DNA from: Rhodopirellula baltica SH 1
GTDB taxonomy: Bacteria; Planctomycetota; Planctomycetia; Pirellulales; Pirellulaceae
Reading direction: 5' to 3'
Assembly: GCF_000196115.1 (NCBI RefSeq)
Contig: NC_005027.1
Span: 2,170,001 to 2,234,000, forward strand
DNA length: 64,000 nucleotides
In this document: piece by piece, positions 17,341 to 43,133 of the stretch
How positions within the stretch are numbered: position 1 is the stretch's first letter
How the letters are laid out: every line of letters starts with the position of its first letter
Program-made: the position numbers and the translations under genes
Notes under the pieces: generated by a model
What the model was told of the DNA's origin: nothing
The model's input: only the letters and a program-made list of their open reading frames with translations
Databases searched by the model: none

Positions 17341-17651
17341 TGTATCGATTGCCTGTATCAAATTTTCGCCTATCATTAAACCTATAACCACACTGGATTG
17401 GTACGGAAGCCAGCAGGAATACAATGGGAATGAATATTGAATCGTCCCACGAGATTCCCATTCTGGTCGAGAATCATGTCGTACCTTGGCCCGTTGCCAT
17501 TCCGAACTCACTGTTGAATCATCCCAACGATTCATCAACTGAAACTGGTCACGGTTACTGACCTGCGTTCGTGTTCGGCTTGTTGCGTACAACCCAGCGA
17601 CAGCGTAAAAACCTGCGACGTTGCTCTTAGCCGGTTCTTCCCACTCAACTG
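17341..17651. other. Intergenic region carrying the cluster repeat
   Basis: About 310 bp between the patatin stop and the nuclease start. Apart from the triple 11-bp-phased repeat at 17402-17430 I see no feature. The frame is open through it but shows no recognisable domain. Confidence 0.55.
17402..17430 (-). promoter_or_regulatory. Phased direct repeat (cluster box 1), three half-sites
   Basis: Plus-strand half-sites TACGGAA (17402-17408), GCAGGAA (17413-17419) and ATGGGAA (17424-17430) are each separated by 4 bp, an 11-bp period. Read toward the minus-strand nuclease gene this is TTCCCAT-N4-TTCCTGC-N4-TTCCGTA. TTATAGG and similar AT-rich -10-like sequences follow. Confidence 0.65.
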
Positions 17652-20558
17652 TTACTTTGAAAGATTCAGCATTTCTCGGGGGGACAGGCTCTTGCTTTGC
17701 GGCAACGACTCGGTGATCCAAGGTGTTTCTTTGGATTCCGTATCTCTTCCAGACGAGGCTGTCGCGACGGTGTCGTTTCGGTGAAGTGCTTTCTCATGAC
17801 GTTTCCACGCAACTTCGATTGCCGCCAAGTCGGTCTGTGAAAGTCGCCAGGACAAAGGTGGTGAATAACTGCTAGTCCCTTCGCTGTCCTCCGGTTTACT
17901 AGATCGAGTGTCAAATCGGAACAATGCAGTCAAGACTTCGATCGACGATCCTTGTTCTTCGGTCGATTGTTGTTGCCGCTCCAATATCTGGTCGATTGCT
18001 CTGGCGATCTCCTTGACGGCAGGTGCCTTCATCTTTTCGGGGTCACTTTGTCGAAGTCCCAATTGAAAAGCACGCATGTGCCGTTCAAGACTAACATCGA
18101 TTTCGACACCATCCAGGCTTTTCTCGATAGAATCAGTCTGCAGATCCATGATCGCTTTATGCAGACGTTGATGCTTCTCCGGATCAACCTCTGCTTCGGC
18201 TCGCACGGAAGCCTCCTGGACTTGTTGCAATAGCTGATCAATATCGCGAGCCGTGGATTGCTGGTGCTCGATGAAATCCTCGCTACTTGTATTCATCAAA
18301 AGGCTTAGTTCCAGATTCGCACGCTCAGCTTGGGATGAAGTTCGGGTGGCCGCAAGTGCGGTGAGCGGCCCAAAAAATGCACTTTTGGTGCCTCGGTTGT
18401 CGTAAGTTGCTTGGGCAACGCTGGGTGGAAATGGCTCAATACGAACGAACAGTACGCGGTCGAACGGAGCGGTTTTTCTCCTCTTGTTCTTCATGTCCTC
18501 ATCGTACCGAGTGATGAGATCCTGAAACATGCTGATTGCCGAAACAAGCCCTGTATTGTCTGCATATCCTCCATCACACAGATGAATATCGAGTCGCGAG
18601 CGTAGCTCCGGCGCTGCGATCTGACCGTCATCAACAGGCAGTGGCAATGCTGCTGGCGTCACATAGGCAAATGTCGCTGACAGTCGTACCGCAGTGGTCA
18701 ATCGGGGATTGACGATCGTGGGTTCAGTGAAAATCGAGCCATAGAAATCGAGAAAGTCTATCGGCATGTTGACGCCATCGTACTGATTTGGCCGCGAATC
18801 TTCCGGCGGAACAGCCCTGCCTTTGACCTGAGAAATCAAAACGCGTTGCCCGGTCTCGACTGCTGTCGCATTGAACACCACCGGGGGAAATTTACCATCA
18901 ATGGTTGGTTGAACGAGATCCCTTACTCGAACCTCGCTCATCCAACTGGCGTCTGCTTCGGTTCGTCCCAATCGATTCCACCACGATCCTTCCAACGCCC
19001 AACCACGATCAGCACGACCGTCAAGTTTGAATGGCAAAATCAGTCGTGAAAAATCGGGGAACGCCATGCCCCAGCCGATCGCTTCAAGCGAAGACGCATT
19101 GGATCGAGCGTTGAGAAGAAGCTGATTTGCTGAAGGACTCATGGGGGGATGGTTGATGTCATTGACACGAGGATACCGATTCGCCAAGTAGTGCATCGTA
19201 CCGACACTGCCTCCTGAAACCGAACTTATCAGCCCAATCGATTCACCGAACGGTTCGATCTCCGCTTCGAGACTTGTAAGAACTTTCGACGTCCAAGCTG
19301 CGGCCTGAATTCCACCGCCGCTCGCTGATACAACGACACACGTTCGTTTGCCGTCACCCCATCGGGGAAAATGGTATTCGTCGTAAAGGTCATAAAGGTA
19401 AGGGGGATCGGGATAGTCGCTGCTTGACTCGGGGCGCTGCGCCAATGCGTCGATCAGATTATGCCCAGTATTTGATGGCGGACGATCGAGTTTTGTAAAA
19501 TTAGCTTCTTGAACACTCAATAACTCGAAATAGCGCTGTTTGTCTGACACAACCAGCATCCATGCCAAGATTGCTAGGCCAACCGGGATTCGGTAGCGAT
19601 CAAATAAAAATGCAATGAGTGAAACGAATCTTCCAGTCAAGAATATCAAGACAAGCAGATAGAATCCGACTGGCCATTTCGGGACATTCCACAAATCAGC
19701 ATGGATAGATTGCCAGAGCCAGACAAAATAGACGGTCACAGAAAGCAATAATCCAATTAACAACTGCAAATGGCCCGGCAGCAACACTTTCGTTTGAGCA
19801 TCGGTAACACCATGAATGTGGATTGGCAATTTGAGACGATGCAGTCGATGCTTAGACATTAATGTGGGAAGTATCCAGCTCGCGAAGTGCCTCGCCCACT
19901 CTTCACCGGGAAACATGCCACTACTACGGGAATCGGCACCGCCACACAACGCACGAATAAACGCTAGTAGCAAAAGGCTCGCCAATGCCGCAAACAGGCC
20001 GATCCCGATCCCAACAACAGCAGCACTCCATGAGGCACCGTTTGCGTTCGCCATTTGCAGCATTGCGTCTGCGCTAAGTTGATCAGCGATCGTTTCTCTT
20101 GAGGCTACGATTGGATAGATCAACGACATCGAGAACCACACAAACCATCCCAAAATCGGCCAGCCAGCAATGTGGAATTTTCCCGATTCGTTCAAAGTTT
20201 GCGTTTCGAATTGAGTTGGTAACTCATCGGACTGCGAAGCATGGCCTGCGAAGTAGTGACGACTTCGACTCTGCCAATGCAAACGGACGAGGCGATAGGT
20301 TGCGATTCCGAACGCGACATTCATCGCATTGAGCCAAGTAAGCCAACTCAGGTCAGTGCGAAAGAGAGAATCGGCGATCGTATGATCACCCAGTGTCAGC
20401 TCCGTACGAACCGTTCGTAACAGCACCAGTCCCCGCAGCATTCCAGGCAAGAACCAGACCGCTAGAACAATCAGCATCGGCGACAAGATGGTCGCGATTG
20501 CATAGCGTGACCACCACATTCGTCGAGCATGAAAAATGATCGATTTAGTTATTCTCAT
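17652..20558 (-). CDS. Membrane-anchored patatin-like phospholipase
   Basis: A 968-residue protein. The first ~340 residues contain about six hydrophobic segments. The patatin domain (about 395-690) has the oxyanion loop SASGGGIQAAAW, the nucleophile elbow GGSVG (Ser451) and the catalytic Asp in DGGYADN (Asp662). A charged helical tail follows (about 730-860). Patatins hydrolyse acyl esters of membrane phospholipids, releasing free fatty acids. Its start overlaps the caspase-like gene by 14 bp. It is last in a unit with the 772-residue protein, DyP peroxidase and caspase. A lipoxygenase encoded in another unit of the same cluster could use its products. Confidence 0.88.
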   Translation of the reverse strand: MRITKSIIFHARRMWWSRYAIATILSPMLIVLAVWFLPGMLRGLVLLRTVRTELTLGDHTIADSLFRTDLSWLTWLNAMNVAFGIATYRLVRLHWQSRSRHYFAGHASQSDELPTQFETQTLNESGKFHIAGWPILGWFVWFSMSLIYPIVASRETIADQLSADAMLQMANANGASWSAAVVGIGIGLFAALASLLLLAFIRALCGGADSRSSGMFPGEEWARHFASWILPTLMSKHRLHRLKLPIHIHGVTDAQTKVLLPGHLQLLIGLLLSVTVYFVWLWQSIHADLWNVPKWPVGFYLLVLIFLTGRFVSLIAFLFDRYRIPVGLAILAWMLVVSDKQRYFELLSVQEANFTKLDRPPSNTGHNLIDALAQRPESSSDYPDPPYLYDLYDEYHFPRWGDGKRTCVVVSASGGGIQAAAWTSKVLTSLEAEIEPFGESIGLISSVSGGSVGTMHYLANRYPRVNDINHPPMSPSANQLLLNARSNASSLEAIGWGMAFPDFSRLILPFKLDGRADRGWALEGSWWNRLGRTEADASWMSEVRVRDLVQPTIDGKFPPVVFNATAVETGQRVLISQVKGRAVPPEDSRPNQYDGVNMPIDFLDFYGSIFTEPTIVNPRLTTAVRLSATFAYVTPAALPLPVDDGQIAAPELRSRLDIHLCDGGYADNTGLVSAISMFQDLITRYDEDMKNKRRKTAPFDRVLFVRIEPFPPSVAQATYDNRGTKSAFFGPLTALAATRTSSQAERANLELSLLMNTSSEDFIEHQQSTARDIDQLLQQVQEASVRAEAEVDPEKHQRLHKAIMDLQTDSIEKSLDGVEIDVSLERHMRAFQLGLRQSDPEKMKAPAVKEIARAIDQILERQQQSTEEQGSSIEVLTALFRFDTRSSKPEDSEGTSSYSPPLSWRLSQTDLAAIEVAWKRHEKALHRNDTVATASSGRDTESKETPWITESLPQSKSLSPREMLNLSK

Positions 20559-21870
20559 GAAACGGAACTGCCGTTGTGTGGGTTGTTGTAATCATGCGTC
20601 TCAACTGGGGATTGACTGGTGGCAGCGCGTCGCGTCTGACTTGGTTTCGGAAGAGCCGAGTTCTCATCGATGTCTGACTGCGCAATCTCGCGAGTGTATC
20701 AGTAGGAATGCTGCCAGGATTCGCTAGGATTCGTTCTCGTTCTGCTACGTAGTATTTGTTTGACGCTTGTCCGACTTGCGATAGAAAGGGTGACCAGTCT
20801 GTGAGTGAAACGTCACTGGCAACCTGGACCCACTGGTTCGAGAAGAAACCACCACGCTCATTGCTGTACCAAGCAAATTGCCCAAAATCGGCCGCAGACA
20901 AATCAATTTGTCCTCGATGTCCGAGCAACAGCCATTCCAGCCCCGTCGCGCCGACAATCTGCATTGTTCTTGCGCGCAGTTCCATGCGGTATTCAAACGG
21001 ATCAGCCTCACCCTGAACATTGCAGGCATCGGTGACAACAGCCCGAAACTTGGCGGGGGCGGCGTTCAAGTATTTCCATACGGTTCGCCGTAGAAGATCC
21101 TTCCTCTTGAAATCCATAAAGTGACCTCGGGATGGATCGTTCTGCGATTGTAGAGGGTCGAACGCGCCGTGACCGAGGTAATACACGAAGACTGAATCGG
21201 CATCGGTGGAAGGAATCACGCCAAGCTCGCGAATGATCTTTTCTGGGTTGCAATCGTCTTCATCCAGGATCGTTAGTTCAAGTTGATCCTTACTGATAAG
21301 CTGTTTGAGCTGTTCGGAAATCTGGTCCAAGCTGACTTTCGCTCCATTTCCGATCGTTTCGTCTTGCGTATCGGCAATCAGAATGGCAAACAGAACTGGC
21401 TTGACACCGCTTGCCTGCGAAGTCGCCGCTGTTCGATTTGCCGTGAGCGTGATGACCACTGGGTCAACATCCCAGTCGCGTGTGCGCAGCGTATCGCTTT
21501 CCTTAATCGTCAATCGCACATTGCCATGACTAGCATCTGATGCGTCTCGCAGTCCTTGGCCGTTGCGAATGATTCTTCCGTTGAGATGAGTGATCTGATC
21601 GCCGGGACGCAATGCGCGAATGACAGGAGGATTGGCATTGGCGAGACGCAGTCTTTGCGTAGGACTATTGGGAAGCAACGAGCGAACGAAAACTCCTTCG
21701 ATAGACTCGTCGATGTGGATGTCAAGTCGATACTCGTAACCGACGGTGGGCGGAGAAATCTCAAAGGGATCAGCGTTTTGTGCTTTACATACGATTGGCG
21801 TCAGCGCTGTTGCGGCAATCATGATCGCATGTACGTAGCCAAGTCTTATGATCAACGGCTTGTTCTTCAT
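20545..21870 (-). CDS. Exported caspase-like (peptidase C14) protein with PDZ domain
   Basis: A 441-residue protein with an N-terminal signal-like hydrophobic segment (about 8-30, ending CKAQNA). A PDZ-like domain follows (about 55-125, with GVFVRSLLPNSP and LRPGDQITHLNGRII), then a caspase-fold domain (about 155-330) whose dyad is intact: His234 in YYLGHGAFD and Cys283 in VVTDACNVQG. Bacterial caspase homologues cleave after basic or other specific residues and act in cell death or conflict systems. It is placed between the DyP peroxidase (4 bp upstream) and the patatin (14-bp overlap). PDZ plus caspase suggests substrate recognition through C-terminal tails; that is inference. Confidence 0.82.
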   Translation of the reverse strand: MKNKPLIIRLGYVHAIMIAATALTPIVCKAQNADPFEISPPTVGYEYRLDIHIDESIEGVFVRSLLPNSPTQRLRLANANPPVIRALRPGDQITHLNGRIIRNGQGLRDASDASHGNVRLTIKESDTLRTRDWDVDPVVITLTANRTAATSQASGVKPVLFAILIADTQDETIGNGAKVSLDQISEQLKQLISKDQLELTILDEDDCNPEKIIRELGVIPSTDADSVFVYYLGHGAFDPLQSQNDPSRGHFMDFKRKDLLRRTVWKYLNAAPAKFRAVVTDACNVQGEADPFEYRMELRARTMQIVGATGLEWLLLGHRGQIDLSAADFGQFAWYSNERGGFFSNQWVQVASDVSLTDWSPFLSQVGQASNKYYVAERERILANPGSIPTDTLARLRSQTSMRTRLFRNQVRRDALPPVNPQLRRMITTTHTTAVPFHENN

Positions 21871-21874
21871 GTGA

Positions 21875-23431
21875 TTACGCTGTGGCTAATTGGTTCAGTG
21901 AATTGATCGATGGGCAAAAGAAGTAGCCGCCGCCGGTTGGGACGACCCAGTCTTTTCGCGTGGAAACGGTTGCCTCGGAGCCAGATGCGTTTTTGAAAAC
22001 GCAAAATCGCTCGCGGTCGGTTGCCGCCCCATTCTGACCGAGGATCATGTCATGACCTTCGTTGTTTCCTGGTTCTGGGTTCACCGTTGAATTGACCCAG
22101 CGGAACATTAACTGCTCAAATTGATCGCGAATGCTGGTTTGATAACACAGAAACAAAAGTCCTCGATTGTTTTCATTGGGAGCATCCTCGTACGCAGGGC
22201 CAAAGGGGATTCCGCGACGCAGGATTCGCATTTTCATCGTGTTTGTTTCTGCTCCAAGGTCCGTTGACCGGTCGCGAGGATTCACTTTACGGATGTGTGC
22301 GTGGAAAGGACAAACGATGCCATCGGCGTCTGCATCGGTCCCTTGAACGATTCGGCCATCGGCTAACTCAATCGGACATGTTTCGTCGCCGTAGCCGAAA
22401 TAGTTGATTCGTTCTTCGGATGTCATTTGTGCGGGTGGCCCATCAGGAGACTGCTGCATGGGAGTTCCATCCGGCCATCGGCCAACGATACTCGCCCGCA
22501 GCAGTTCTGCGTCGATATGTGAGAACTCCGAATGCGCAGCTAGCTCCGACGCCATCTTGTCCGTCTCTTCGCGGAAGAGCCGAACGTCCTGCTTGAGTCT
22601 TCGGAAAACCAAAAATGAACCGTTCTTCAGAAAGTCATCGGTGTTGGCAATCGAGGACGGATCGCGAAAGTTGTTTGAATTCTGGCGCGGGTATCCGAAC
22701 ACGAATTCACCCGGCCAAACCAGAGGCGATCCCGGCGACGCCCATTCCGGCCCGGTTGGCAAATTGCGCACCCGACGTTTGGCTAGAAAGTCATGGGTGC
22801 CGGCCGACACTCGACCACGCATCGCCGGCTGGGAGACTCCATCACGAAACCCAAAATGCTCTTGATCGTTCTCCAGGCGATTGCCACGTTCATCGTAAAT
22901 GACCGTATGCGTATTGCCTTCGATGGTGTCAATGAGTGACGCAACCCCTTCATCCAACGTGGCGTCATCGGACGACCCGATGATCAAGAACAGATCGGCC
23001 GCGTTGTCTGGACCGCCAACCAGCCAATTGTTCCTGTGTCCCTCACTTGCTGGATCGCGATGATCGCCGAGAGCAAAACTACGACTATGAAGCCCCAGAC
23101 GAAACGAACGGTCCGCGTCGTTTACCGAGTCGCCAATTAGACTCATGAGTAGTTCGTTACCCAAAGCGACATTAACCCACAAAGGGTGTGATTCCAGGGC
23201 ACGAAAGCTGGATATCCCAAAGTTGTAGCTTTGTCTCGCCCGTTCCAAACGACTCTCGTGAAACCGCAATGCCTGATCCATCGTGGTGACCTGAGGTAGC
23301 AATTCGCTAATCAATCGACGAATCTCATCGGCTCCCCCCGACTTGACCGCGATGAGATGCTGGAATGGGAAACGGAAACCCGGCGCGATGTTCGCTTGAA
23401 TCTGGTCGGTCGAAAGTAGCGGTTCGATCAT
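21875..23431 (-). CDS. DyP-type haem peroxidase
   Basis: A 518-residue peroxidase of the dye-decolourising family. It has the signature GFRDG (194-198) with the distal Asp, a proximal-His segment CPFHAHIRKVNPRD, the distal Arg region RILRRGIPFGP and the C-terminal GLLFLCYQTSIRDQFE. The length fits the longer DyP classes rather than the ~300-residue encapsulated type. It uses H2O2 to oxidise large aromatic substrates. No signal peptide is present. It sits between the 772-residue unknown protein and the caspase, so it shares their promoter. Hydrogen peroxide could come from the LodA-like oxidase encoded further upstream. Confidence 0.93.
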   Translation of the reverse strand: MIEPLLSTDQIQANIAPGFRFPFQHLIAVKSGGADEIRRLISELLPQVTTMDQALRFHESRLERARQSYNFGISSFRALESHPLWVNVALGNELLMSLIGDSVNDADRSFRLGLHSRSFALGDHRDPASEGHRNNWLVGGPDNAADLFLIIGSSDDATLDEGVASLIDTIEGNTHTVIYDERGNRLENDQEHFGFRDGVSQPAMRGRVSAGTHDFLAKRRVRNLPTGPEWASPGSPLVWPGEFVFGYPRQNSNNFRDPSSIANTDDFLKNGSFLVFRRLKQDVRLFREETDKMASELAAHSEFSHIDAELLRASIVGRWPDGTPMQQSPDGPPAQMTSEERINYFGYGDETCPIELADGRIVQGTDADADGIVCPFHAHIRKVNPRDRSTDLGAETNTMKMRILRRGIPFGPAYEDAPNENNRGLLFLCYQTSIRDQFEQLMFRWVNSTVNPEPGNNEGHDMILGQNGAATDRERFCVFKNASGSEATVSTRKDWVVPTGGGYFFCPSINSLNQLATA

Positions 23432-23464
23432 TCGGATTGCCTGTCGCAGAGGTGCCCCGGAATG

Positions 23465-25783
23465 CTACCGAGTGTAAGGATTCTTGATGCTCTTCAAGTT
23501 TGGCAGGGGATCTTGAGCAGCGTCCAGTTCGCGCGCTGCAGCAATACCTGCTGGGCCACCTGGCGGCGGGCACGGAACATCGATATCAGTAATTCTTTGC
23601 AAATCCGGAAGAGTTGGATGTGCGCAACAATGTGCGACACAGGACATCGCACTTGGAACAACACTCGCGTCAAAAGCTTTGCCAAAGATGACGATCGAGA
23701 TAAACTCCGCGATTTGCGAACCAAAACGAAGCGGTTCGCCGCCAACGTTGACATTGCTCAGCGGGCCGCCATCGGGAAGTGAAAATTCTGCCCGCAGAAT
23801 TTGCTTTTTGTCTTGATCTCCACGGATGACTTTCCAGCAGTCGTTGAACGTGACACCGGTTGGAAATTCGAACGGTGCTGGGTCAAGACTATGAATGTAC
23901 AAGCCGACTGGATCGTCGATGGTGACAAATTGTTTCTGCCGTACCAGGCCGTTGATCGCGGATCCGATTGTTGGGTCGCTAGAGCGATCAGGACCACCAT
24001 AGCCAGCACAACAAATTAGCGCGCCTGGCGCTGTAATCGGCCCAGTATCATTTTTCCGTAGGACAGTCGCATCGGCGGCTAGGAAGACCTCAGCGGAGAG
24101 TGAATTGGCTGGATGTGTCAGATGAATTGCACCGTCGGTCGTGTTCCATTTGTTGTAAGGATTGTATTTTCCGTTTTGATTGATCGCATTGCCATCCTGA
24201 TCCGGGATGAAGATGTCCTCACCGAAAAAAAGATCCGCCATCGCGACGGACTGGCCCGTTAAGTCTTGATAGAGCGTCAATAGTAGATCGGGGTCATCGT
24301 CCGCGATGAACCGCCAATACTCTGGGTTCTCACAAGTAAAGACAACTTTTCTTAGATCGTTGCCCGTGTCGCGGAAAGAATGCCACTCGCAATACTCGTC
24401 TTGATCGCGAAAAACGATATCGTCCGCAGGCACAAATCCGCCCGGCACTTGTCGGTAATAGCTCGCTCGTCTACCGGTTAAGTCTGCACTGGCGGTTTCT
24501 TCCACGATTCGCCAACGCTGTTCGACATCCTGAACAACCTGAGAATATTTCCGAGGGAAACCGCTCCACGGAATTTCTGCCACACTTCCGCCACCGTGTT
24601 GCGGCGTGTCAACCAGATTGAAAAGCCGAACGTCAGCCATCGACACTCCGATGTCTTGTACCAGTCGCGTCTCTGCCGAGCGAAACCACCCGTGAACGAC
24701 TTCGCTCCACTCTGCTTTCTGAGCTGGCGAAAGGTCTTCGACGTTTGCCGGTGGTGAGTACTGAAATGCTCCACTGGTGCTATCAAGTGAGTCAATCCAG
24801 TTTTCGATGTATTGAATATCGTCACTACTCAATGGCGGTTGGTTCAGCGGCATTTGCGGAATGCCAGAAAGCGTTCCCTTGAGAACTTTGACGAGAGCCG
24901 AGCGAGCCCCGCGATCCGGCCCAGGATCGGCAATCAACGCATGGCCATAGATCGGTGGCACCGCTAAAAATTCATCCTCGGGAAGTCGCCAAAATCTGGC
25001 CTGACCATCATGGTGCGGGAAGCTCATCCCAGAAGCCGATTCCAGAATTTGTTGAACACCCGCATAAGTCACGGGCGGTGCAGCACCGACACCTGCGAGT
25101 GCTGCGCGTTGCGATGGAGCGCAAATTGCATCGAAGGCCTCTGGTGCAGGTGCCCGAAAACGGTGCTTGGCAAACGCCCAATCAAGATGCTCAAACGTAA
25201 GTCCCATCCATCTGTCGCGCAACAAGTCCAATCGACTTGCGGGCAGCTCTGGATTGCTGGGACTGTCATTCACCGGAATCGCTTCCGTTTGAATCGCCCA
25301 AGAGAGTCCCATGCAACGATCGATGTGCAACCAACGATCCGCTGAATCGCCTAACAAACTTGCAGCACGGATAAATCCATGCCAGCGTTGCCAGCCAACC
25401 CAATTATCCGGAGTCCCATCCATCATGTGAACGCGTCTGCCTGGTGGTCGCGGCGGACGATCGTCAAACAAGACACCTTGCCCGAAGTCCTCAAACGCAC
25501 TGCGAATCGCATCATCGTCTTTCAAGTGTCGATCAATGATTTGCAATTGGATTGCGGCGAGGTCTAGCAATCCGCGTTTACCAGATTCGACCGTCGTCAC
25601 AAATGGTTCAGGATGACTCGGATTTGAAAACGAAGTCCGCAAAAACTCGGGAAGCGAGTCCAAGCCCCAACTCTGAGCAAAATACCCACGCTGAAACGCA
25701 TCGGCGATCACCCGCGTCCGCTGCCACAGTGTTTGATTGTCAAAGTCAAACCAAAACTCCCGACCAAGTTCTCGCGTATACAT
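23465..25783 (-). CDS. Uncharacterised 772-residue protein with haem-less cytochrome-like segment
   Basis: I recognise no named family for the whole protein. The N-terminal part (about 1-235) is rich in Trp/Asp/Arg. A middle segment (about 240-335) resembles planctomycete cytochrome-c domains in its ending (SALVKVLKG, IPQMPLNQPPLSSDDIQYIENWID) but has no CxxCH. The C-terminal part (about 400-730) begins EYCEWHSFR and contains NKWNTTDGAIHLTHPANSL and CAGYGGPDRSSDPTIGSAIN; it looks like a conserved enzyme-sized domain. A Cys-rich tail (MSCVAHCCAHP) follows. It is the first gene of a unit led by the repeat at 25852-25869 and is followed by the DyP peroxidase. The context suggests a redox role. 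Confidence 0.75.
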   Translation of the reverse strand: MYTRELGREFWFDFDNQTLWQRTRVIADAFQRGYFAQSWGLDSLPEFLRTSFSNPSHPEPFVTTVESGKRGLLDLAAIQLQIIDRHLKDDDAIRSAFEDFGQGVLFDDRPPRPPGRRVHMMDGTPDNWVGWQRWHGFIRAASLLGDSADRWLHIDRCMGLSWAIQTEAIPVNDSPSNPELPASRLDLLRDRWMGLTFEHLDWAFAKHRFRAPAPEAFDAICAPSQRAALAGVGAAPPVTYAGVQQILESASGMSFPHHDGQARFWRLPEDEFLAVPPIYGHALIADPGPDRGARSALVKVLKGTLSGIPQMPLNQPPLSSDDIQYIENWIDSLDSTSGAFQYSPPANVEDLSPAQKAEWSEVVHGWFRSAETRLVQDIGVSMADVRLFNLVDTPQHGGGSVAEIPWSGFPRKYSQVVQDVEQRWRIVEETASADLTGRRASYYRQVPGGFVPADDIVFRDQDEYCEWHSFRDTGNDLRKVVFTCENPEYWRFIADDDPDLLLTLYQDLTGQSVAMADLFFGEDIFIPDQDGNAINQNGKYNPYNKWNTTDGAIHLTHPANSLSAEVFLAADATVLRKNDTGPITAPGALICCAGYGGPDRSSDPTIGSAINGLVRQKQFVTIDDPVGLYIHSLDPAPFEFPTGVTFNDCWKVIRGDQDKKQILRAEFSLPDGGPLSNVNVGGEPLRFGSQIAEFISIVIFGKAFDASVVPSAMSCVAHCCAHPTLPDLQRITDIDVPCPPPGGPAGIAAARELDAAQDPLPNLKSIKNPYTR

Positions 25784-28887: not shown

Positions 28888-29018
28888 TTAGTGTTCTCCA
28901 TTCCTAAAAAGCTCAAACTGATGAAGTGTTGTCCAGCCTGGTCTCGACAAGACACACTCGGTACACATAACCGTCCGTCGTCACCCGCACAGGCAACAAC
29001 ATTGACCAAAAACTCGCG

Positions 29019-34136: not shown

Positions 34137-34139
34137 GAA

Positions 34140-34865: not shown

Positions 34866-34879
34866 AGCTATCGAGTGCC

Positions 34880-36004: not shown

Positions 36005-36009
36005 AATGA

Positions 36010-37593
36010 CTAAGCCATGAACATTCCATCGGGATTTCGTTCCTGCTCGTGATACTCCTCTCCGACTTGAACAACGATGCCCAGCTCATGCCAACGCTGA
36101 ACCATGTCCTTGTGGTTTGAAATCTTTCCTCGAGTCCAAGCGACTTGTGAGCTTCCCGAGTGCTCAAACACTTCGTCAGGTCGCTGTGCCGGCCACCATG
36201 ACCCAGCGCACTTCAGAAAGTCAGCTTGCCAGGGAAGAGCATTGCCTTCGGTTAAGTAGCCCGGTGAGCGCAACTGGTCGATTGAAGCGGGTTTCAATCT
36301 AATTTCGTCAGCACGATCTGATGAATCGACGTCGTAGATGTTCAGCCGCAGTGCGACGATTCGGTTCACTTCGATACCTGGGAAAAACGCGCCACCAGCG
36401 CAAGATTCCAAAGCCGCGATGTCCAGTCCTCTTGCGGAGACTGTTGCTTCAGGCGTAAATGCACCGGCCCAGTCGTTGACAAATTTTCCGTCTTTCCATT
36501 GACGCATCAAATGAAACTGTGTTCTAGTGAACGTCAGTCCTTGGGTTGGGTAAACTGCACCATCAAGATCGCCCGTCAGGCGTGGCATGTTTCCACTGCT
36601 GCCTGGGTTGTCGGGGTCCCTGAGCTTACTAAAGATCGCGGTGCGAGCAGCTTGATGCGGATCGCCGTTCGCATCCGGTTCAAGACTTAGGTCGTCATGC
36701 CGGGACAAGTGAGCGCCGACATGCCCCAAGTTAGCAAGCTTGTTGACCCAGCCCTGTTGCGACGCACGATGCAGGATTGGATAAATTTCATTGGTGTAGG
36801 ACGGTCGATAGTCGCTGCGAAATTTGCCGCCGTCAAAGAGGGATGTGTTGAGCGAAAAATTGCGAACGCAGACATCCAACATCAAGTCATAGAGTGTCAC
36901 AACGTTGCCGACGCCTGGGGCAAAGTCGGCTGGCCCCACAATAATCCAAGCAGGTTTGACTGCTGTAGTGGTACCATCGGTGAACTCGATCGTTGCTTCG
37001 ACGGGACCATCGGAGGTATCGTCATACCAAAACGGGTTGTTGTCAAAGCTGAGGCTGCCACCAGCAGAATACCCGCCATTTTCCCCAGGCTTCAGGACGA
37101 AATCGGATTTGCCAAGTCCACCGGCAACGACCAACGTCCCGGATGGTTCCACCGTCGCGTCTCCCAAGAAGACTGGGTCACCGCGGAATGCCCCGTCGTC
37201 AAATTTTTCTTGTTGTCCCGGGGTGTCGAGGGTCTTTCCCGATGGTGCAATCACGAGGTCTGCTTCGGCAATACCCGGATTTCTTTTACTAGGAGTAACG
37301 CGAAGAATATTGTCGCCGGCAGCTTTGCGGTTGGCGAGACTCACACGCCATTGGATCTTTGCGACGTCGCCACGTGACAAGTCGACTTCCACTGGCTCCG
37401 CGTCAGGATGATCCGAGTCGTACTCAAAGACTCGAAATCGCGTTGCTTGGCGTTTCAACCGCCCGTCTCGCTTGAACTGTCCGTCTGATGGGCTTGGACT
37501 GGTGCCCGGAATCTCCGGCCCAACGAACGTTTCCATGCTGCTACCTAATCGGGCAACCCCAATGGCTGGATGAACGCGGTAGCTCTTGGACAT
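36010..37593 (-). CDS. lodA-like: LodA-like cysteine tryptophylquinone oxidase
   Basis: A 527-residue protein. The N-terminus RVHPAIGVARLG and EFVGPE-like start (TFVGPEIPG) match LodA, as do MPRLTGD, ESCAGGAFFPGIE (Cys398) and LPWQADFLKCAGSWWPAQRPD (Trp466/Trp467), which supply the Cys and Trp that crosslink to the CTQ cofactor. LodA oxidises L-lysine, and relatives oxidise other amino acids, producing H2O2 and ammonia; the marine enzyme is antibacterial. This member is shorter than LodA (726 residues), so substrate specificity cannot be assumed. No Sec signal is present, which is usual for the family. It is followed by a LodB-like gene and preceded by a ferritin-like/glucose dehydrogenase-like fusion. 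Confidence 0.92.
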   Translation of the reverse strand: MSKSYRVHPAIGVARLGSSMETFVGPEIPGTSPSPSDGQFKRDGRLKRQATRFRVFEYDSDHPDAEPVEVDLSRGDVAKIQWRVSLANRKAAGDNILRVTPSKRNPGIAEADLVIAPSGKTLDTPGQQEKFDDGAFRGDPVFLGDATVEPSGTLVVAGGLGKSDFVLKPGENGGYSAGGSLSFDNNPFWYDDTSDGPVEATIEFTDGTTTAVKPAWIIVGPADFAPGVGNVVTLYDLMLDVCVRNFSLNTSLFDGGKFRSDYRPSYTNEIYPILHRASQQGWVNKLANLGHVGAHLSRHDDLSLEPDANGDPHQAARTAIFSKLRDPDNPGSSGNMPRLTGDLDGAVYPTQGLTFTRTQFHLMRQWKDGKFVNDWAGAFTPEATVSARGLDIAALESCAGGAFFPGIEVNRIVALRLNIYDVDSSDRADEIRLKPASIDQLRSPGYLTEGNALPWQADFLKCAGSWWPAQRPDEVFEHSGSSQVAWTRGKISNHKDMVQRWHELGIVVQVGEEYHEQERNPDGMFMA

Positions 37594-37647
37594 GTCTTCG
37601 ATTCCTTATATGATTTGCCCGCGTCGGGCACCGGTTTCTGAACAGCG

Positions 37648-40527
37648 TCAAGTAGAGGAGATCCGAAAGATGTCACCAAGTATCGACACGATATAGATTT
37701 CGCCTTGGCTGTCTTGTCCAAACGAAACGATCGAGCTGATCGGACCACCAACGTTTATTTCGGCGGTTCTTTCCATATGATTGGAGATGCTGGTCCCGTC
37801 AAAACGGAACGACCAAATCCGGCTGGAAAGAAAATCAGCGTAGAAGTAAGTCCCTTGCAATCCGGCAAGGGCTTCTCCTCGGTAGACGTGCCCACCGATG
37901 ATCGTCCCACCATCACTGCGGCCGTACTGAAAAATCGGATCGACAAGGTTTGGCTGGTCTGAATCGAGCCCTGTCAGTACTGTGCCTTCGCGAATACGCC
38001 AACCGTAGTTTTCGCCGCCACGACTGTTTGTGTTTTGAAAGTTGATTTCCTCAACCGCAAACTGCCCAACATCTGCGATCCAAAGGTCTCCCGTCATTTG
38101 ATCAAAACTACATCGCCAAGGATTGCGCAATCCAGTCGCCCAAATCTCTCCTCGCGCTGCTGCACCTGACGCGAACGGGTTTGACGAGGGAATCCCGTAG
38201 TTCATGTCTGCGGCTGCAGGCAAATCATCCTTATCCACATCGACACGCAGCATCTTTCCCAGCAGAGAATTTTTGTTCTGAGCGTTGCCGATCGGCGGCG
38301 TTGGATCGTTGGCGGATCCTCCATCTCCTAACGCGATGTACAGGAAACCGTCATTAGGGCCAAAACCAATCCAGCCACCGTTGTGATTTGCAAAGGGCTG
38401 ATCTACCACCATCACGTTATGTCTACTTGCCGGATCAACACCGTTTGCGGTTGCCGTGTACCGCCGTACCGTGGTCCGGCCGGCGTGATCCGTGCAGTTT
38501 ACGTAGAAATGCCCGTTCTCTTGAAACTTCGGATGGAAGGCCAACCCCAGCAGTCCTCGCTCGCCGTCAACACTCAAGTCATCAACCTGAAACAAAGTAT
38601 GAGTAACCATCCCATCGGAAGCGTTCAGTACCTTGATCGCCCCGGTTTTCTCAACCAAATAGACCGCATCCGGTTTCCCCGGCGCTGACGTCAGGAACAA
38701 CGGTTGGTCAAGCCCCGATGCAAATCGTTTCGCAACGATGCTTCCCGCCGCCCCGCCCTGAGCTCCCGCTGCAGCACGCATACCCAACGCTACAGTTCGC
38801 CCTGATGCCGCTCCGCCAGAGTCCGTCGGCAAACTGCGTATCCAACGCTCGACAACTTTCGCCTCTTCATCCGTAAAGTTGGCGGCCATGATCCCATCCG
38901 TGATCTGTATGTAGAAACCACTTTGGCTGGGATTGCCTGGCACCACCAGCGGTTTGCCCGCCGCGGGCGGACGAGTCGCATTGGCTGTCGTCAGGAATTG
39001 TAAGATTCGTTCGTACGCCTCATCGGAAAACAGCCCGCTAAGATTGCCGCCATCATCGCCGACTTGCACGCCACTGTGCACGATCTGCGCCAGTGAGCAT
39101 TTGGACTTTAGCAGTTCAACAAAGTCTGCCTTGGCCTTGGTCCCGTCACTTGGCGCGGGCGGCTGATCGGGCGGGTTGACTGGTGTATCCGTTGGCAAAT
39201 TGTCGATAAAATCGTTTGCTGCGGAACGGATCAGATCGTTTGTACGCTCCAACGTGTTTCGCAGTGGTGCAGCAGTTGTTGTGTCTTTCAAAACGGAGTC
39301 GGTCGCGTCAACAATATCCAAGTACGTGCGCCATTGTGCCTCGATCGACTGCGGCAATGACAACGTATATGGCAACGCGAACGGTGGACCAGCTTTTTTC
39401 TCGCGTCCATCCGCATCTACTTGAGGCGGATCGTGCTGCGGACGCGATTGTAGATGCGAAATCACACCCATGAGGCCGGGTGTCTTCATCCCGAGGAAAC
39501 ACCAATTGATCACCGTGCCGCGTTGGGTCAATTGCGATGTGCGGTCCAATGTCACCGAGTGCGCGATCGCGTAGAGCAACAAACGATACTGTAGATCGGC
39601 GACGTGAGCCCAACGACGACTTTCTTGATCCGTTATCCGCCCATTCTCCATCTCTGCGTCGCTAAAGACCTCTTCCGATGTATTTGGATTGTTGGGCGTC
39701 GGATGGCTTGGATTCCAAGTTGTGGTGCTTGCAAACTCTTCGTAGATCGTCCTGAATTTTTGATAGTGTGATGTGACCGCCGCGTCGCCACCCTCACCTT
39801 GTTCGGCAATAGCATTTGCCAACTCCCTTGCTTCTTCCCGATTAGAAACCGTTTGTACGATGCGTCCGCCGAGTGCTCTCCATTCGCCAGCGATAGCTTG
39901 AACGGTGTCCGCCGAATCTGCGTAGAAATCACTGTCGCTTAATTCATCAAGTAACTCGTCGATTTTCTCGAACAACGCACCCACGCGATTCAGTGGCTCG
40001 CCTCCCTGCGCGCCCATCGCTTGGTCTATGATTGCCTGCAATTCTGCATCTGGCGCGATTTCAGGCATCTCGGTGACGACGTATTTCGCAAGTGAGTCGA
40101 GCGAAATTGGCTCCAGCTTGAAGTGAAACGGGTAGAACAAATCGCGAAAAGGGAAGTCTTCTCGATCAAGGTTGGTCGGACCACCGAGCGATATCAGCAA
40201 GTTTTGCATCGAGATCAGATGCGCCATTTCTTCGATCGCGATTTCAACGATCGCCGATTGCCATCCCCTGGCCTTCGTTCGTTCGGTTTCGTCAGGCGCG
40301 TTGCCGACGTCAATGGAATAAGCCGTGTACAAATATTGCACCAACAATGAGTGCTCGATCTCAGCAGCCGTTTGCAACAAGAAGATGGCCTCATCACGAG
40401 GCGTCATGACGCCCTCTACTACTAACTCTTCAGCGGTTGCAGCGAATGGCACTCTCTGTTCGGCAGCGGTGGCGGCGCGTGCCGAACGAGGGCGACTTCG
40501 GAAAAAAATTCTTGGCAATTTGGACAT
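37648..40527 (-). CDS. Ferritin-like (VioB-type) domain fused to PQQ sugar dehydrogenase-like propeller
   Basis: A 959-residue fusion. About 35-330 is a ferritin-like domain with AAEIEHSLLVQYLYTAYSI and IEIAIEEMAHLISMQNLL, carrying the expected Glu and His residues. About 480-590 is a cytochrome-like segment lacking CxxCH (SDEAYERILQFLTT, NFTDEEAKVVERWIRSLP). About 620-955 is a soluble glucose/sorbosone dehydrogenase propeller (GERGLLGLAFHPKF, WIGFGPNDGFLYIALGDGGS, ATGLRNPWRCSFD, GENYGWRIREG). A basic N-terminus (RIFFRSRPRSARAATAAEQ) is Tat-like only in charge and lacks a hydrophobic core. It lies 32 bp after the haem peroxidase gene. The substrate is unknown. Confidence 0.85.
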   Translation of the reverse strand: MSKLPRIFFRSRPRSARAATAAEQRVPFAATAEELVVEGVMTPRDEAIFLLQTAAEIEHSLLVQYLYTAYSIDVGNAPDETERTKARGWQSAIVEIAIEEMAHLISMQNLLISLGGPTNLDREDFPFRDLFYPFHFKLEPISLDSLAKYVVTEMPEIAPDAELQAIIDQAMGAQGGEPLNRVGALFEKIDELLDELSDSDFYADSADTVQAIAGEWRALGGRIVQTVSNREEARELANAIAEQGEGGDAAVTSHYQKFRTIYEEFASTTTWNPSHPTPNNPNTSEEVFSDAEMENGRITDQESRRWAHVADLQYRLLLYAIAHSVTLDRTSQLTQRGTVINWCFLGMKTPGLMGVISHLQSRPQHDPPQVDADGREKKAGPPFALPYTLSLPQSIEAQWRTYLDIVDATDSVLKDTTTAAPLRNTLERTNDLIRSAANDFIDNLPTDTPVNPPDQPPAPSDGTKAKADFVELLKSKCSLAQIVHSGVQVGDDGGNLSGLFSDEAYERILQFLTTANATRPPAAGKPLVVPGNPSQSGFYIQITDGIMAANFTDEEAKVVERWIRSLPTDSGGAASGRTVALGMRAAAGAQGGAAGSIVAKRFASGLDQPLFLTSAPGKPDAVYLVEKTGAIKVLNASDGMVTHTLFQVDDLSVDGERGLLGLAFHPKFQENGHFYVNCTDHAGRTTVRRYTATANGVDPASRHNVMVVDQPFANHNGGWIGFGPNDGFLYIALGDGGSANDPTPPIGNAQNKNSLLGKMLRVDVDKDDLPAAADMNYGIPSSNPFASGAAARGEIWATGLRNPWRCSFDQMTGDLWIADVGQFAVEEINFQNTNSRGGENYGWRIREGTVLTGLDSDQPNLVDPIFQYGRSDGGTIIGGHVYRGEALAGLQGTYFYADFLSSRIWSFRFDGTSISNHMERTAEINVGGPISSIVSFGQDSQGEIYIVSILGDIFRISST

Positions 40528-40559: not shown

Positions 40560-42041
40560 TTAAGCACGGAATGCAACCAAATCAGCCATCGTGAAGCTAC
40601 CGATGTTTCCAGCACGATCTGGCAATGTTGGAGTCCAATCCTGTGGATCATGTGGAGCAAGAATCTCTTCTCTGACAACATCGATCATCCCAACGATCGT
40701 TTCAGCTACGATTCGGCCTCCAACCGGTCCCAAATGTTCACCGCCTGGGTCCCCAGTCAATCCGGACTCCTTCAGAATGTAGAACCAGAGCGGAGCCTTG
40801 CCACCAAGCCCGTCGATTTCGTTGATGCCTAGAGTGGCGTTATCTAGTGGCGTGATCCCCATCGCATCAGCAACGTCTTGGCCAGCTGGCAGTTTCAACG
40901 TACGCGCTCGCCGCATGTTTCGTTCTGGTAACGACGCGGGCGGATCTTCACCACGATGAATGAATGGAAGATCGAACAGCGGCTTAGCAATCTTTGCGTC
41001 TACCCTGCGACAAAACTGCAGATTGTCATGGTTGCCGAAGTCGAAGAAGTAACTCCAATCCAAGTTGTAGTTTGTCGATGGGCCGCCGTCTTCACCGCAG
41101 TCGCCATTAGGGCAGGTCCCAAAAAATGGCAGCTTAAACAGCTCTATGCCCTGGGTCGCAGCATTTAGGTTGTAAGTCTCTCGAATCAGCGTGTGCCCAA
41201 ATCGGTAAGCCGCACCACCGAATTCGACGGGAATGAATGGACGGTCTGAACGCTCCTCCCATTTGAAAAACTGACGGCCGTTCACTATTACGTCATTCGT
41301 TACACTCGTGCCAGCAATGTGGGGCAAGAACTCGTGCAAGACGATCCAGTGATAATGAAGCGTAACCAAGTTCCTCGCTTCCTCGAACAAATCTTTGTTG
41401 CCCGGTGGGTTGCCGTCGGCCTTGCTCAACAGGTACTTCACAACTTCATTGTGAAATCCAAGAAATGCTCGATGCACTTGCGATATGAGCAAGTTCTCAT
41501 CGTTTCGAGGGTCGCCAATGATTGCGGTTCCTTGGCGATTGCGTGGCAGATCAAAGTCGTTTTTTGCGGTGTCCGTTAACAGACGAAACGGTAGGCGGTG
41601 CTCGCTCTTAGGATTTCCTCCAACAGTATCGTATAGATGGCGTGATGCATCTGGCCCATCACCAAAGACGCTGTCAAGATCCAGTGCTGGCGTCCGGAAA
41701 TTGCGAATGGCGTCTGGATCCAGACGATCATCCAAGCGTGAAATTGGATCGAAAGTGACGTCATGATCTATAAACTGTCCTAAGAACGCGAAGCCAAGCG
41801 GAATCGTTGATTCGTTCGCGGCTGCGTCGTCCTCTCGCATGGTTTCCGCGACTTGACGAATCGCATTGTTGGTGGGTTCGTAGATTGGTAATCCTTCAAA
41901 AATACGTCCGAACTTTCCTGCCGGCACTTGCTCGGGCGATTGGGCATCCAGCCCCAGTGCATGAAACATCGACATTCGGCGACGATCTGATTTTGTAACC
42001 AACTCAATTCCGCGCTGACTCAATGCACCGTGGCTTGCCAT
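40560..42041 (-). CDS. Animal-type haem peroxidase (peroxidase-cyclooxygenase superfamily)
   Basis: A 493-residue protein from ATG at 42041, chosen because AGGAG lies 9 nt upstream; an in-frame ATG at 42074 has no such site. Signatures are the distal His in LGQFIDHDVTFD (His93, with adjacent Ca-binding Asp94), RNRQGTAIIGDPRNDENLLISQVHRAFLGFHNEVV, and the proximal His in AYRFGHTLIRETYNLN (His283). These place it with bacterial relatives of myeloperoxidase and lactoperoxidase, which use H2O2 to oxidise halides or organic substrates. No signal peptide is seen. It is the first gene of the unit that includes the LodA-like, H2O2-producing enzyme, a natural oxidant supply. Confidence 0.92.
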   Translation of the reverse strand: MASHGALSQRGIELVTKSDRRRMSMFHALGLDAQSPEQVPAGKFGRIFEGLPIYEPTNNAIRQVAETMREDDAAANESTIPLGFAFLGQFIDHDVTFDPISRLDDRLDPDAIRNFRTPALDLDSVFGDGPDASRHLYDTVGGNPKSEHRLPFRLLTDTAKNDFDLPRNRQGTAIIGDPRNDENLLISQVHRAFLGFHNEVVKYLLSKADGNPPGNKDLFEEARNLVTLHYHWIVLHEFLPHIAGTSVTNDVIVNGRQFFKWEERSDRPFIPVEFGGAAYRFGHTLIRETYNLNAATQGIELFKLPFFGTCPNGDCGEDGGPSTNYNLDWSYFFDFGNHDNLQFCRRVDAKIAKPLFDLPFIHRGEDPPASLPERNMRRARTLKLPAGQDVADAMGITPLDNATLGINEIDGLGGKAPLWFYILKESGLTGDPGGEHLGPVGGRIVAETIVGMIDVVREEILAPHDPQDWTPTLPDRAGNIGSFTMADLVAFRA

Positions 42042-42112
42042 ACGAATATACTCCTGTTTGAGAATTTGAACCATCTATAGAAACGATGATTGCTTGCAAC
42101 TGCTCGGGCGGC

Positions 42113-42130
42113 TACGGAAACGGATGGGAA
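42113..42130 (-). promoter_or_regulatory. Phased direct repeat (cluster box 4)
   Basis: Plus-strand TACGGAA (42113-42119), 4 bp, ATGGGAA (42124-42130). Read toward the peroxidase gene this is TTCCCAT-N4-TTCCGTA, 72 bp upstream of its start. A weaker third site, TATGGTA, follows at 42135-42141. TATAGA occurs 33 nt downstream of TTCCGTA on the coding strand. Confidence 0.7.
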
Positions 42131-42148: not shown

Positions 42149-43036
42149 TCAGTTGACATCAGTGATGATGGATGGCCGAAACAACTCCGTCACATCCAGC
42201 CAATCTTCCGAGATTAGGCACCAATAATCGCGAGCGAGGTAGTTGCAAACGAAGCTGGCAGGAAGCCATCCATACCCATTGTCTCCCCATTGCTGTCCCC
42301 AGGAACTGCGAATCAAGATCGCGTCTTGATCCGCACCAACGCGATTCAATTGATATCCAACTGCGACAACAGATTGACCACCGCGCGGTGCGTCATGGGC
42401 TTTGCGAAAAAGAATCTCGGGACAATCAGCCAATGACGAAGGCACAGAGAACCCGAACAGTACTGGAAATCCGGCCGCGAGGAAGGATTTCAACGCACGC
42501 CATGTCTCTTGACCACTACATCCATCATCGACAATACGGAAATACCGAAGGGCCTTCGGGGCTGTTGCCAGCGAAAGCAGAAACGAGCTAGGTTCGGATC
42601 GAAAAGCCTCGATACTATATGGCCAGTATTCTTCCGGCGGGACGCCAACCTGAGCAAGTACTTTCAAGGTGGTCCTCAAATCCGCGCCTGAATCAGCAAG
42701 ATCTCGTCCTGCTTTCGCGATCCGGTAGCGTGCAGCTTGATACAGAAACAGGCGTGAGCCATCGTAGGTCCGTCCGGCAACACGCCGCTCAAAATACTCG
42801 ACCGCAGACAAGGCCGCGAACGCAGATGAAGCATTCAATGTTCGTTGGTCGTCTACTGCCGTGAAATACTCTGTGTCGCAATCGCAGCGTAGATCAACTA
42901 GGTCGGGTTGTTCGGAGTCCAGCATCTCCGGCAGGTCTAGAAGTAGACGCCGAACCTCAGGGTGCCGAAACGTGTAGTCGCGTCCATCGGGTAGGTCAGG
43001 TTGCCACCCCAATCCTCGCGGCACAAATTTAGCCAT
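42149..43036 (-). CDS. Papain-fold protein with all three catalytic residues replaced
   Basis: A 295-residue protein from ATG at 43036; an in-frame ATG at 43069 is possible. It follows bacterial C1A peptidases closely: GWQPDLPDGRDY near the start, the oxyanion Gln in VDDQRTLNASSAFA (Gln64), GGQSVVAVGY and IRSSWGQQWGDNGYGWLP. In this alignment the nucleophile Cys is Ser70, the catalytic His is Gln221 and the catalytic Asn is Ser244, so peptidase activity is very unlikely, although the fold motifs are kept. It is a single-gene unit with its own copy of the cluster repeat. It may be a binding, inhibitor or decoy protein. No signal peptide is present. Confidence 0.82.
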   Translation of the reverse strand: MAKFVPRGLGWQPDLPDGRDYTFRHPEVRRLLLDLPEMLDSEQPDLVDLRCDCDTEYFTAVDDQRTLNASSAFAALSAVEYFERRVAGRTYDGSRLFLYQAARYRIAKAGRDLADSGADLRTTLKVLAQVGVPPEEYWPYSIEAFRSEPSSFLLSLATAPKALRYFRIVDDGCSGQETWRALKSFLAAGFPVLFGFSVPSSLADCPEILFRKAHDAPRGGQSVVAVGYQLNRVGADQDAILIRSSWGQQWGDNGYGWLPASFVCNYLARDYWCLISEDWLDVTELFRPSIITDVN

Positions 43037-43115
43037 AGCGATCTCGTGATTGAACGAATAGCAAGGCAAAAACGCCTCTCTAAACGTCTATTCAATCGTT
43101 GCGATAGAAATCGGC

Positions 43116-43133
43116 TACGGAATAGAATGGGAA
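43116..43133 (-). promoter_or_regulatory. Phased direct repeat (cluster box 5)
   Basis: Plus-strand TACGGAA (43116-43122), 4 bp, ATGGGAA (43127-43133); CCGAGAA at 43138-43144 is a possible third site. Boxes 4 and 5 share GTTCCCAT-N4-TTCCGTAGCCG. AATAGA follows TTCCGTA by 23 nt on the coding strand, the same spacing as AATAGT in box 3. Confidence 0.7.

Follow-up and report, generated by a model that had tools for sequence, protein, structure and literature searches.

A phased direct repeat upstream of five inferred transcription units in a Rhodopirellula baltica gene cluster, and a candidate cluster-situated regulator

In Rhodopirellula baltica SH 1, one short repeat recurs upstream of genes in a minus-strand cluster encoding oxidases, peroxidases, a tyrosinase, and hydrolases. 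The locus raises the question of whether this repeat is an operator and, if so, which protein reads it. To our knowledge, few operators and regulators have been worked out in planctomycetes. We analyzed a 64-kb stretch of the genome, referred to here as “the window.” The original prediction held that plus-strand half-sites TACGGAA-N4-ATGGGAA occur at five positions, that they form a PhoB/OmpR-type box, and that a single regulator controls five units. What is new here is a candidate regulator for the repeat, a 240-aa ORF (P0001; 43209..43931, minus strand) that heads the cluster; among the papers listed in literature searches, no title or abstract opening describes the motif or this candidate.

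The element is present at all five positions, while the exact pair is found at three of them (31565, 42113, and 43116). Read on the coding strand, it has the form TTCCYAT-N4-TTCCGTAGC, with TTCCGTA being the most conserved block. Half-sites and phase are kept between copies; the N4 spacers and the flanks vary. Operator 1 (43116..43133; this and the other operators are on the minus strand) is exact, TTCCCAT-TCTA-TTCCGTA, and is followed by the −10-like hexamer TTGAAT at 43090-43095. Operator 2 (42113..42130), also exact, reads TTCCCAT-CCGT-TTCCGTA and has no TNNAAT at the usual spacing. Operator 3 (31565..31593) comprises three half-sites, TTCTCAT-TGAG-TTCCCAT-CGAC-TTCCGTA, with a −10-like TTTAAT at 31539-31544. 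Operator 4 (25852..25869) is ATCCCAT-GGGA-GTCCGTA, i.e., TACGGAC-N4-ATGGGAT on the plus strand, two mismatches from the consensus pair, and has no TNNAAT at the usual spacing. Operator 5 (17402..17430), TTCCCAT-TGTA-TTCCTGC-TGGC-TTCCGTA, again has three half-sites and a −10-like TTTAAT at 17375-17380. Because its TACGGAA is followed by GCAGGAA, a diverged middle copy, with ATGGGAA coming third at 17424 in 11-bp phase, this site is a phased triple rather than the pair claimed for it. The third in-phase half-sites noted at 17402 (7/7) and 31565 (6/7) are indeed there; as a general feature, a third half-site is unsupported, being clear at two of the five window promoters. A −10-like TNNAAT lies 20–21 nt downstream at three of the five window sites, and the AATAG(A/T) correctly reported 23 nt after two copies belongs to this wider hexamer. 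The count of −10-like hexamers omits the papain site of Rubripirellula lacrimiformis, which is nearly identical to that of R. baltica, and site 6659 of locus L122, which lies inside an ORF. With up to three mismatches allowed, the window contains 11 matches, versus 4.83 ± 2.05 in shuffled sequences, and 0/100 shuffles reach 11.

The genes downstream of these sites, all on the minus strand, fall into five putative units. Unit 1 is a papain-like C1 peptidase (42149..43069; likely start at an internal Met at ~43036), homologues of which occur near other members of the 240-aa family. The putative unit 2 starts with an animal-haem-peroxidase-like gene (40560..42074; likely start ATG 42041) and continues, with short gaps, over 31611..40527 through genes for a ferritin-like/GSDH protein (37648-40527), a LodA-like protein (36010-37593), a LodB/GoxB-like flavoprotein (34880-36004), a dienelactone-hydrolase-like protein (34140-34970), and an 841-aa protein without a Pfam match (31611-34136). 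Unit 3 starts with a PvdP-like tyrosinase (29963..31462; score below the NCBIfam cut-off). Downstream of the tyrosinase are a metallopeptidase (29019-29894) and a ferritin-like/BNR protein (26122..28887). The putative unit 4 (17652..25783, short gaps) encodes a 772-aa protein (23465-25783), a Dyp-type peroxidase (21875-23431), and 441-aa and 968-aa proteins without Pfam matches (20545-21870 and 17652-20558, respectively). The putative unit 5 (13505..17328, short gaps) encodes a trypsin/non-specific endonuclease protein (15118-17328), a trypsin-like endopeptidase (14201-15049), and a carbonic anhydrase (13505-14137). All five sites had been placed in gaps longer than 100 bp. The listed ORF start leaves 74 bp for the gap at 42113. 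Starting the peroxidase at its internal ATG 42041, nine bases after an AGGAG, widens this gap to 107 bp, and we think that this start is the right one. Similarly, the trypsin-nuclease gene probably starts at GTG 17328. With the revised starts, a hand count agrees with the original prediction: five of the six cluster gaps >100 bp hold a site, the exception being 28888-29018, upstream of the ferritin-like/BNR gene, where there is no site among the window's best 15.

As in LodA/LodB quinoprotein oxidase operons, the LodA-like gene adjoins the LodB/GoxB-like gene. Unlike in those operons, scores are below the NCBIfam equivalog cut-offs, and the genes are embedded with a tyrosinase, peroxidases, peptidases, and a nuclease. 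Relatives are described as amino-acid oxidases, some of them antimicrobial (PMC4417212). We recognized no biosynthetic cluster at this locus, and a PADLOC scan of eight proteins for defence functions gave weak matches for the trypsin-nuclease protein alone. Among plasmids, 36 records carry LodA-like genes at <60% identity, with no bearing on the cluster.

The motif is local to the cluster. In the R. baltica genome, the only exact copies are the three in the cluster, and outside the cluster a refined pattern has no match with 0–1 mismatch; the random genome-wide scatter that would have argued against an operator is not seen. Allowing up to two mismatches gives 30 matches, versus 14 for a reversed control. 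Of these, 23 are inside ORFs of at least 150 aa; the remaining seven, outside long ORFs, are four cluster sites plus L014, L019, and L026. A global regulon is rejected, both by the missing 0–1-mismatch matches outside the cluster and by the intragenic position of 23/30 looser ones. A matrix built solely from the five sites in the two orthologous clusters places the five window sites at the top of the 64 kb, with scores of 26.2, 26.2, 26.2, 19.9, and 18.7; the next window match scores 12.7, and the maximum in 400 kb of control DNA is 16.9. A matrix from 16 outside sites, themselves picked with a matrix that contained window sites, scores the five at 27.3 (three sites), 19.9, and 19.4, followed by 12.3. 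A 10-site matrix omitted the near-identical R. lacrimiformis papain site. The matrix test is not fully blind, because the outside sites were originally located with the window consensus.

The cluster itself is patchily distributed. Its marker gene, the tyrosinase, is present in 3/241 genomes of the family and absent from all 12 other Rhodopirellula-genus genomes examined. In a phylum-wide sample, it was found in 2/392 genomes, i.e., R. baltica and one partial, weak match; a contig scan gave TBK1r and ten distant relatives (32–52% identity) with no other cluster genes nearby. As predicted for a functional element, the sites are kept before orthologous genes in two other genera, in R. lacrimiformis and Stieleria magnilauensis. 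The array of operator 3 is identical in R. lacrimiformis except for one base. Gene content varies among the three clusters. Across the 238 family genomes that lack the cluster, the motif was found once. G212, the only one of the 12 other Rhodopirellula-genus genomes with a match to the 240-aa family, has no site scoring at least 11 in 39.9 kb.

The idea of a single regulator gains support from the 240-aa ORF, which is the only match of its own family in the R. baltica genome (E ≤ 1e-10) and whose product may be the switch that recognizes the repeat. It has no Pfam, NCBIfam, or PADLOC family, and its 1,147 homologues are unannotated. The predicted layout is an N-terminal MarR-like winged helix, a low-confidence linker (117-141), and, over residues 139-240, a C-terminal winged helix that resembles OmpR/PhoB DNA-binding domains by fold comparison, with a modest Z. 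Sequence-level searches gave no such link: Trans_reg_C (PF00486) is absent from the matches of 57 family members (E ≤ 1), hhalign of the C-terminal domain against four R. baltica Trans_reg_C domains returned a probability of 0.2, and the PDB sequences yielded two matches, both at E 0.05 and both to an unrelated human protein. The C-terminal model had no Foldseek match at E ≤ 0.001. Response_reg is also absent from the matches of the 57 members (E ≤ 1); with no receiver domain seen, the protein is therefore no two-component response regulator. The family is carried by 58 of the genomes surveyed. Neighborhoods of other family members, in several genera, are enriched for motif-like sites. A site scoring at least 14 is present at 9/15 loci where regulator identity is at least 47%, versus 0/6 below (hypergeometric ~0.017, with the cut chosen post hoc; ~39 stretches were fetched for ~90 match rows, without further family loci from short contigs or from the last part of the listing). 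At locus L132, regulator identity is 47.06%. Before the papain genes of distant family members, a search for diverged 11-bp repeats gave nothing convincing.

We consider it likely, taking the explanation as a whole, that the repeat acts as operator for a transcription factor encoded within the cluster, with the 240-aa protein as the most likely candidate. The C-terminal domain of this protein would contact half-sites arranged head to tail at 11-bp intervals on a single face of the DNA, two of them or, in some cases, three. TTCCGTA(GC) would sit at about −40 to −33, with TTCCYAT one turn upstream and a third copy at two promoters. Since the proximal half-site would overlap the −35 position, with a −10-like hexamer ending in AAT 20–21 nt downstream at most sites, we infer a class-II-type activator that replaces the −35 element. 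Five units would be co-activated: the papain-like peptidase, the peroxidase/LodA/hydrolase operon, the tyrosinase, the Dyp-peroxidase operon, and the trypsin-nuclease. The N-terminal MarR-like domain may dimerize or sense a signal.

This arrangement partly resembles known systems. In classical Pho promoters, the last half-site is 10–11 nt from the −10; here, the distance is 20–21 nt. Of the proposed PhoB/OmpR-type box, the 11-bp head-to-tail repeat stands; the −10 spacing and the absence of a visible receiver domain do not fit. The predicted C-terminal fold of the 240-aa protein resembles, at a modest Z, the winged-helix DNA-binding domains of PhoB and PhoP; unlike them, the protein has no sequence-profile match, and its putative sites belong to a single cluster rather than a global regulon. 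In SARP regulators, a BTAD domain follows the N-terminal OmpR-like domain; BTAD is absent from the Pfam matches of the 57 family members. The Streptomyces PhoP site is described as a direct repeat of 11-nt units, with seven bases conserved in the unit, and PhoP binding needs two such units (PMC6988585). Streptomyces SARPs are described as encoded in the cluster that they control, with heptameric repeats in its promoters and an N-terminal winged helix (PMC6627628). The R. baltica cluster likewise has a candidate regulator gene within it and heptameric direct repeats at its promoters; unlike in SARPs, the OmpR-like domain is C-terminal, behind the MarR-like domain, and there is no convincing Pfam domain. 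MarR sites are usually palindromic, unlike the direct repeats here, and a second predicted winged-helix domain also sets the 240-aa protein apart from the MarR family.

The same protein could instead bind these sites as a repressor, which we regard as a minority possibility. Many MarR-type regulators, which the N-terminal half resembles, are repressors, and a site across the −35 could block polymerase. However, the site keeps a constant spacing to the −10 and leaves it uncovered, which better suits an activator, although this is not decisive.

It is improbable that the repeat serves an ordinary OmpR/PhoB response regulator whose gene lies elsewhere in the genome. The 7+4+7 architecture is typical of such regulators, and R. 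baltica has four Trans_reg_C matches; however, none of the four is inside the window, and a core regulator would leave unexplained both the concentration of motif-like sites around members of the 240-aa family in several genera and the motif's single occurrence in 238 cluster-less genomes. Less probable still is an alternative (e.g., ECF) sigma-factor promoter with TTCCGTAGC as the −35 and TNNAAT as the −10. While the fixed distance to the −10-like hexamer and the strong conservation of TTCCGTA would suit such a promoter, the phased TTCCYAT copies would be unaccounted for, the 20–21 nt exceeds the shorter ECF spacing, and no sigma-factor domain is present among the cluster proteins scanned. 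Finally, it is very improbable that the repeats are mobile or recombination sequences by which gene cassettes are shuffled: gene content is unequal among the three clusters and transposases lie directly upstream of the cluster, but spacers and flanks vary while half-sites and phase persist, and a −10-like element often follows the repeat.

Regulation by the 240-aa protein would give planctomycetes a concrete local regulon: its half-site is defined, it has a promoter geometry, and its candidate regulator belongs to an unannotated family of more than a thousand proteins that combine two predicted winged helices with no visible receiver. If true, the operator predicts targets of this family in other genera and offers a handle on when planctomycetes express clusters of oxidases, peroxidases, tyrosinases, and proteases. 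More speculatively, and with small odds in its favor, the 240-aa protein might work with the papain-like protease encoded next to it as one proteolytic switch, and its family might regulate protein-damaging arsenals in planctomycetes. The protease, whose own gene would be expressed from the direct-repeat promoter, would cleave the flexible linker that joins the two winged helices, thereby either releasing the OmpR-like DNA-binding half or destroying it. Lineages would differ in the cargo placed behind this operator (peptidases, oxidases, a nuclease), in Gimesia possibly including a RebB “killing trait” neighbor.

Because the genes of the cluster are encoded on the minus strand, that strand gives the most natural reading of the element, TTCCYAT-N4-TTCCGTAGC. 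The window covers bases 2,170,001–2,234,000 of a single contig of 7,145,576 bases. Of the five copies originally described, those at 31565, 42113, and 43116 (before the tyrosinase, peroxidase/LodA, and papain-like peptidase units) are exact; the copy at 25852 has two mismatches, and that at 17402 is a set of three half-sites in 11-bp phase whose middle half-site, TTCCTGC, has diverged. Allowing up to three mismatches, the pattern as first described matches the window 11 times, compared with 4.83 ± 2.05 times in shuffled sequences. A matrix built from five sites of two orthologous clusters, applied to both strands, places the five sites at the top (26.2, 26.2, 26.2, 19.9, and 18.7; the next window score is 12.7, and the maximum in 400 kb of control DNA is 16.9). 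The ranking is unchanged with a matrix built from 16 outside sites (three sites at 27.3, then 19.9 and 19.4; next window score, 12.3; 14.3 with the matrix reversed; 15.7 in control DNA), but the outside sites behind both matrices were found via the window consensus, so this test is not fully blind. The gap at 28888–29018, said to lack the motif, has no site among the best 15 in the window with the 16-site matrix.

Genome-wide, exact matches are limited to the three places in the cluster. Allowing up to two mismatches gives 30 matches (reversed pattern, 14), of which 23 fall within ORFs of at least 150 aa; four of the other seven are cluster sites. A refined pattern, TTCCYATNNNNTTCCGTAG, has three exact matches in the genome, all within the cluster, and no match with one mismatch. 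The motif is thus not scattered at random, and the regulon is local rather than global, being limited to the cluster. Across the 241 genomes of the taxonomic family, the refined pattern occurs eight times: three times each in R. baltica and Rubripirellula lacrimiformis (G214), and once each in Stieleria magnilauensis TBK1r (G231) and genome G149. The single-regulator regulon of the original prediction is right in outline; it needs to be restricted to the cluster, and a probable regulator can be added.

A match to the PvdP-like tyrosinase is present in 3 of the 241 genomes (R. baltica, R. lacrimiformis, and S. magnilauensis; 81–82% identity), with none in 12 other genomes of the genus. In R. 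lacrimiformis, sites precede the orthologues of the trypsin-nuclease, tyrosinase, and papain-like genes, with a further site before a 655-aa gene at the place of the R. baltica peroxidase; in S. magnilauensis, they precede the tyrosinase and a 631-aa gene. Sites are thus conserved before orthologous genes in related species, and none was recognized before the 772-aa orthologues of either genome. The R. lacrimiformis tyrosinase promoter array, TTCCCAT-TGAG-TTCCCAT-CGAC-TTCCGTAGC, differs from that of R. baltica by one base, and the flanks differ widely. An alignment of 11 sites shows no variation at six of the seven positions of the proximal half-site; the base at the seventh is shared by 10. 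Gene content varies: R. lacrimiformis has clostripain-, trypsin-, and astacin/matrixin-like genes where R. baltica has a ferritin/BNR protein and a metallopeptidase.

The 772-aa orthologue of S. magnilauensis (locus L040) is interrupted, with a plus-strand 387-aa ORF between two tblastn pieces. In the cluster of that species, the homologue of the 240-aa protein (L041, G231:C1:899265-900009) aligns only from profile position 92 onward, and the papain-like match is a 54-residue C-terminal piece only.

If the 240-aa protein heading the cluster (ORF 43209–43931, minus strand) reads the repeat, copies would be expected close to the genes of its relatives in other loci. A first look up to 1.5 kb away from 29 other family matches, with the R. 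lacrimiformis cluster itself (L094) left out, gave nine motif-like sites (up to two mismatches) in six loci. A 10-site matrix from three clusters was run on 22 stretches (416 kb) around 21 family loci, picked by score and contig size. At scores of at least 15, it found 12 sites in seven stretches, and the reversed matrix one; in 20 control regions of 400 kb, the counts were one (17.7) and none. Around more distant members, a second set (20 stretches, 268 kb) gave four sites in three stretches, one of which (G020) was picked with its site already known, and none for the reversed matrix. Read from their coordinates, 14 of 15 sites (G020 excluded) lie within 2 kb of the family gene, though the stretches mostly span 10 kb on each side. 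Sites scoring at least 14 are found in 9 of 15 loci at 47% identity or more to the R. baltica protein, versus none of six below this post hoc cut. Besides the three clusters, such sites are present in genera g37, g24, g29, g21, and g73 (Gimesia aquarii, G288); L120–L123 are loci of one genus, so the sites are not all independent. A same-strand ORF starts within 250 bp of 10 or 11 (one is ambiguous) of the 14 first-set sites scoring at least 14; none does so for L122 6659, L124 11662, and L127 12226. The pattern TTCCN7TTCCGTA-N20/21-TNNAAT matches the 241 genomes 10 times (reversed pattern, once): three matches in R. baltica and two in R. lacrimiformis, all in clusters; two single matches, in G028 and G020, that fall between ORFs and at most 2 kb from a family gene; and the rest in G108, G063, and G182, all inside ORFs on contigs with no family match. 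We consider the 240-aa protein the likely cluster-situated regulator of the repeat; our confidence is slightly lowered by a tool warning on Z, by the many family members with no recognizable site, and by the sites lacking a same-strand ORF.

Downstream of TTCCGTA, the hexamer TNNAAT peaks at an offset of 20–21, where it is present at 5 of 10 cluster sites (AAT alone at 8) and 7 of 14 sites in other loci (AAT alone at 8), or 6 of 13 without G020, which was found with the −10 in the search pattern; the background at non-overlapping offsets is 0 to 1. Within the window, it is present at 17402, 31565, and 43116, and absent from that offset at 25852 and 42113. With a −10 at about −12 to −7, TTCCGTA would cover about −40 to −33, and so overlap the place of the −35 element. 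In classical Pho promoters, the last half-site is 10–11 nt from the −10; in the R. baltica cluster, about one more helical turn separates the two. We propose that the predicted C-terminal winged helix of the 240-aa protein binds two or three phased half-sites, and that the protein would recruit RNA polymerase, in place of a −35, at promoters whose −10 ends in AAT. The five units, with operon limits taken from gene spacing, would then be switched together. Possibly, the protein acts by repression instead. That a response regulator encoded elsewhere reads the element is less probable, as is an alternative sigma factor accounting for it. The 240-aa protein would work much as OmpR/PhoB and SARP systems do; we do not file it as a member of either, since three features checked for it or its sites (receiver domain, sequence profile, and −10 spacing) were not found.

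Genes adjoining sites in other loci are rich in peptidases. Papain-like C1 peptidases are beside sites in L120, L121, L126, and L129 (Pfam) and L123 (tblastn), and subtilases in L120 and L124 (Pfam) and L122; other neighbors (Pfam) are a trypsin-like 1,021-aa protein (L129) and an M28/M36 protein (L131). Papain-like matches (tblastn, E ≤ 1e-4) are present in 10 of 21 first-set and 4 of 20 second-set stretches, two being short pieces; in seven papain-bearing distant loci, no site was found. In R. baltica, R. lacrimiformis, L129, and L120, the regulator is followed by a site, the papain gene, a second site, and the next gene, in that order.

At L124:11636-11681 (G230), about 1.3 kb from the family gene, two motif-like sites in opposite orientation are six bases apart; one faces a subtilase gene, and the other has no same-strand ORF nearby. 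At L175:9424-13046 in Gimesia aquarii, a 240-aa family gene and a gene for RebB ("Killing trait", PF11747), of the R-body protein family, are about 2.5 kb apart. At L173:6479-9638, motif-like sites, a 145-aa ORF, and an AAA ATPase that carries a variant winged-helix domain (PF22977) come after the genome's other member.

Within the R. baltica cluster, proteins of 441–968 aa encoded at 17652–20558, 20545–21870, 23465–25783, and 31611–34136 have no Pfam or NCBIfam match. The 282-aa trypsin-like ORF at 14201–15049 fits RB4269, which PMC2754498 describes as a "282 aa, glutamic acid specific endopeptidase"; the paper lists it in an overview table and names it under cold shock, a hint that the trypsin-nuclease unit responds to stress. 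Transposases (rve-type, 44826–45704; IS66, 46575–47969; both within 44826–47969) lie just upstream of the cluster, which fits its patchy distribution. Two 457-aa DDE_Tnp_1 transposase genes, at 49834–51207 and 56866–58239, are exact reverse complements over all 1,374 bases, and this inverted pair encloses ABC-transporter (MacB/HlyD-type) genes.
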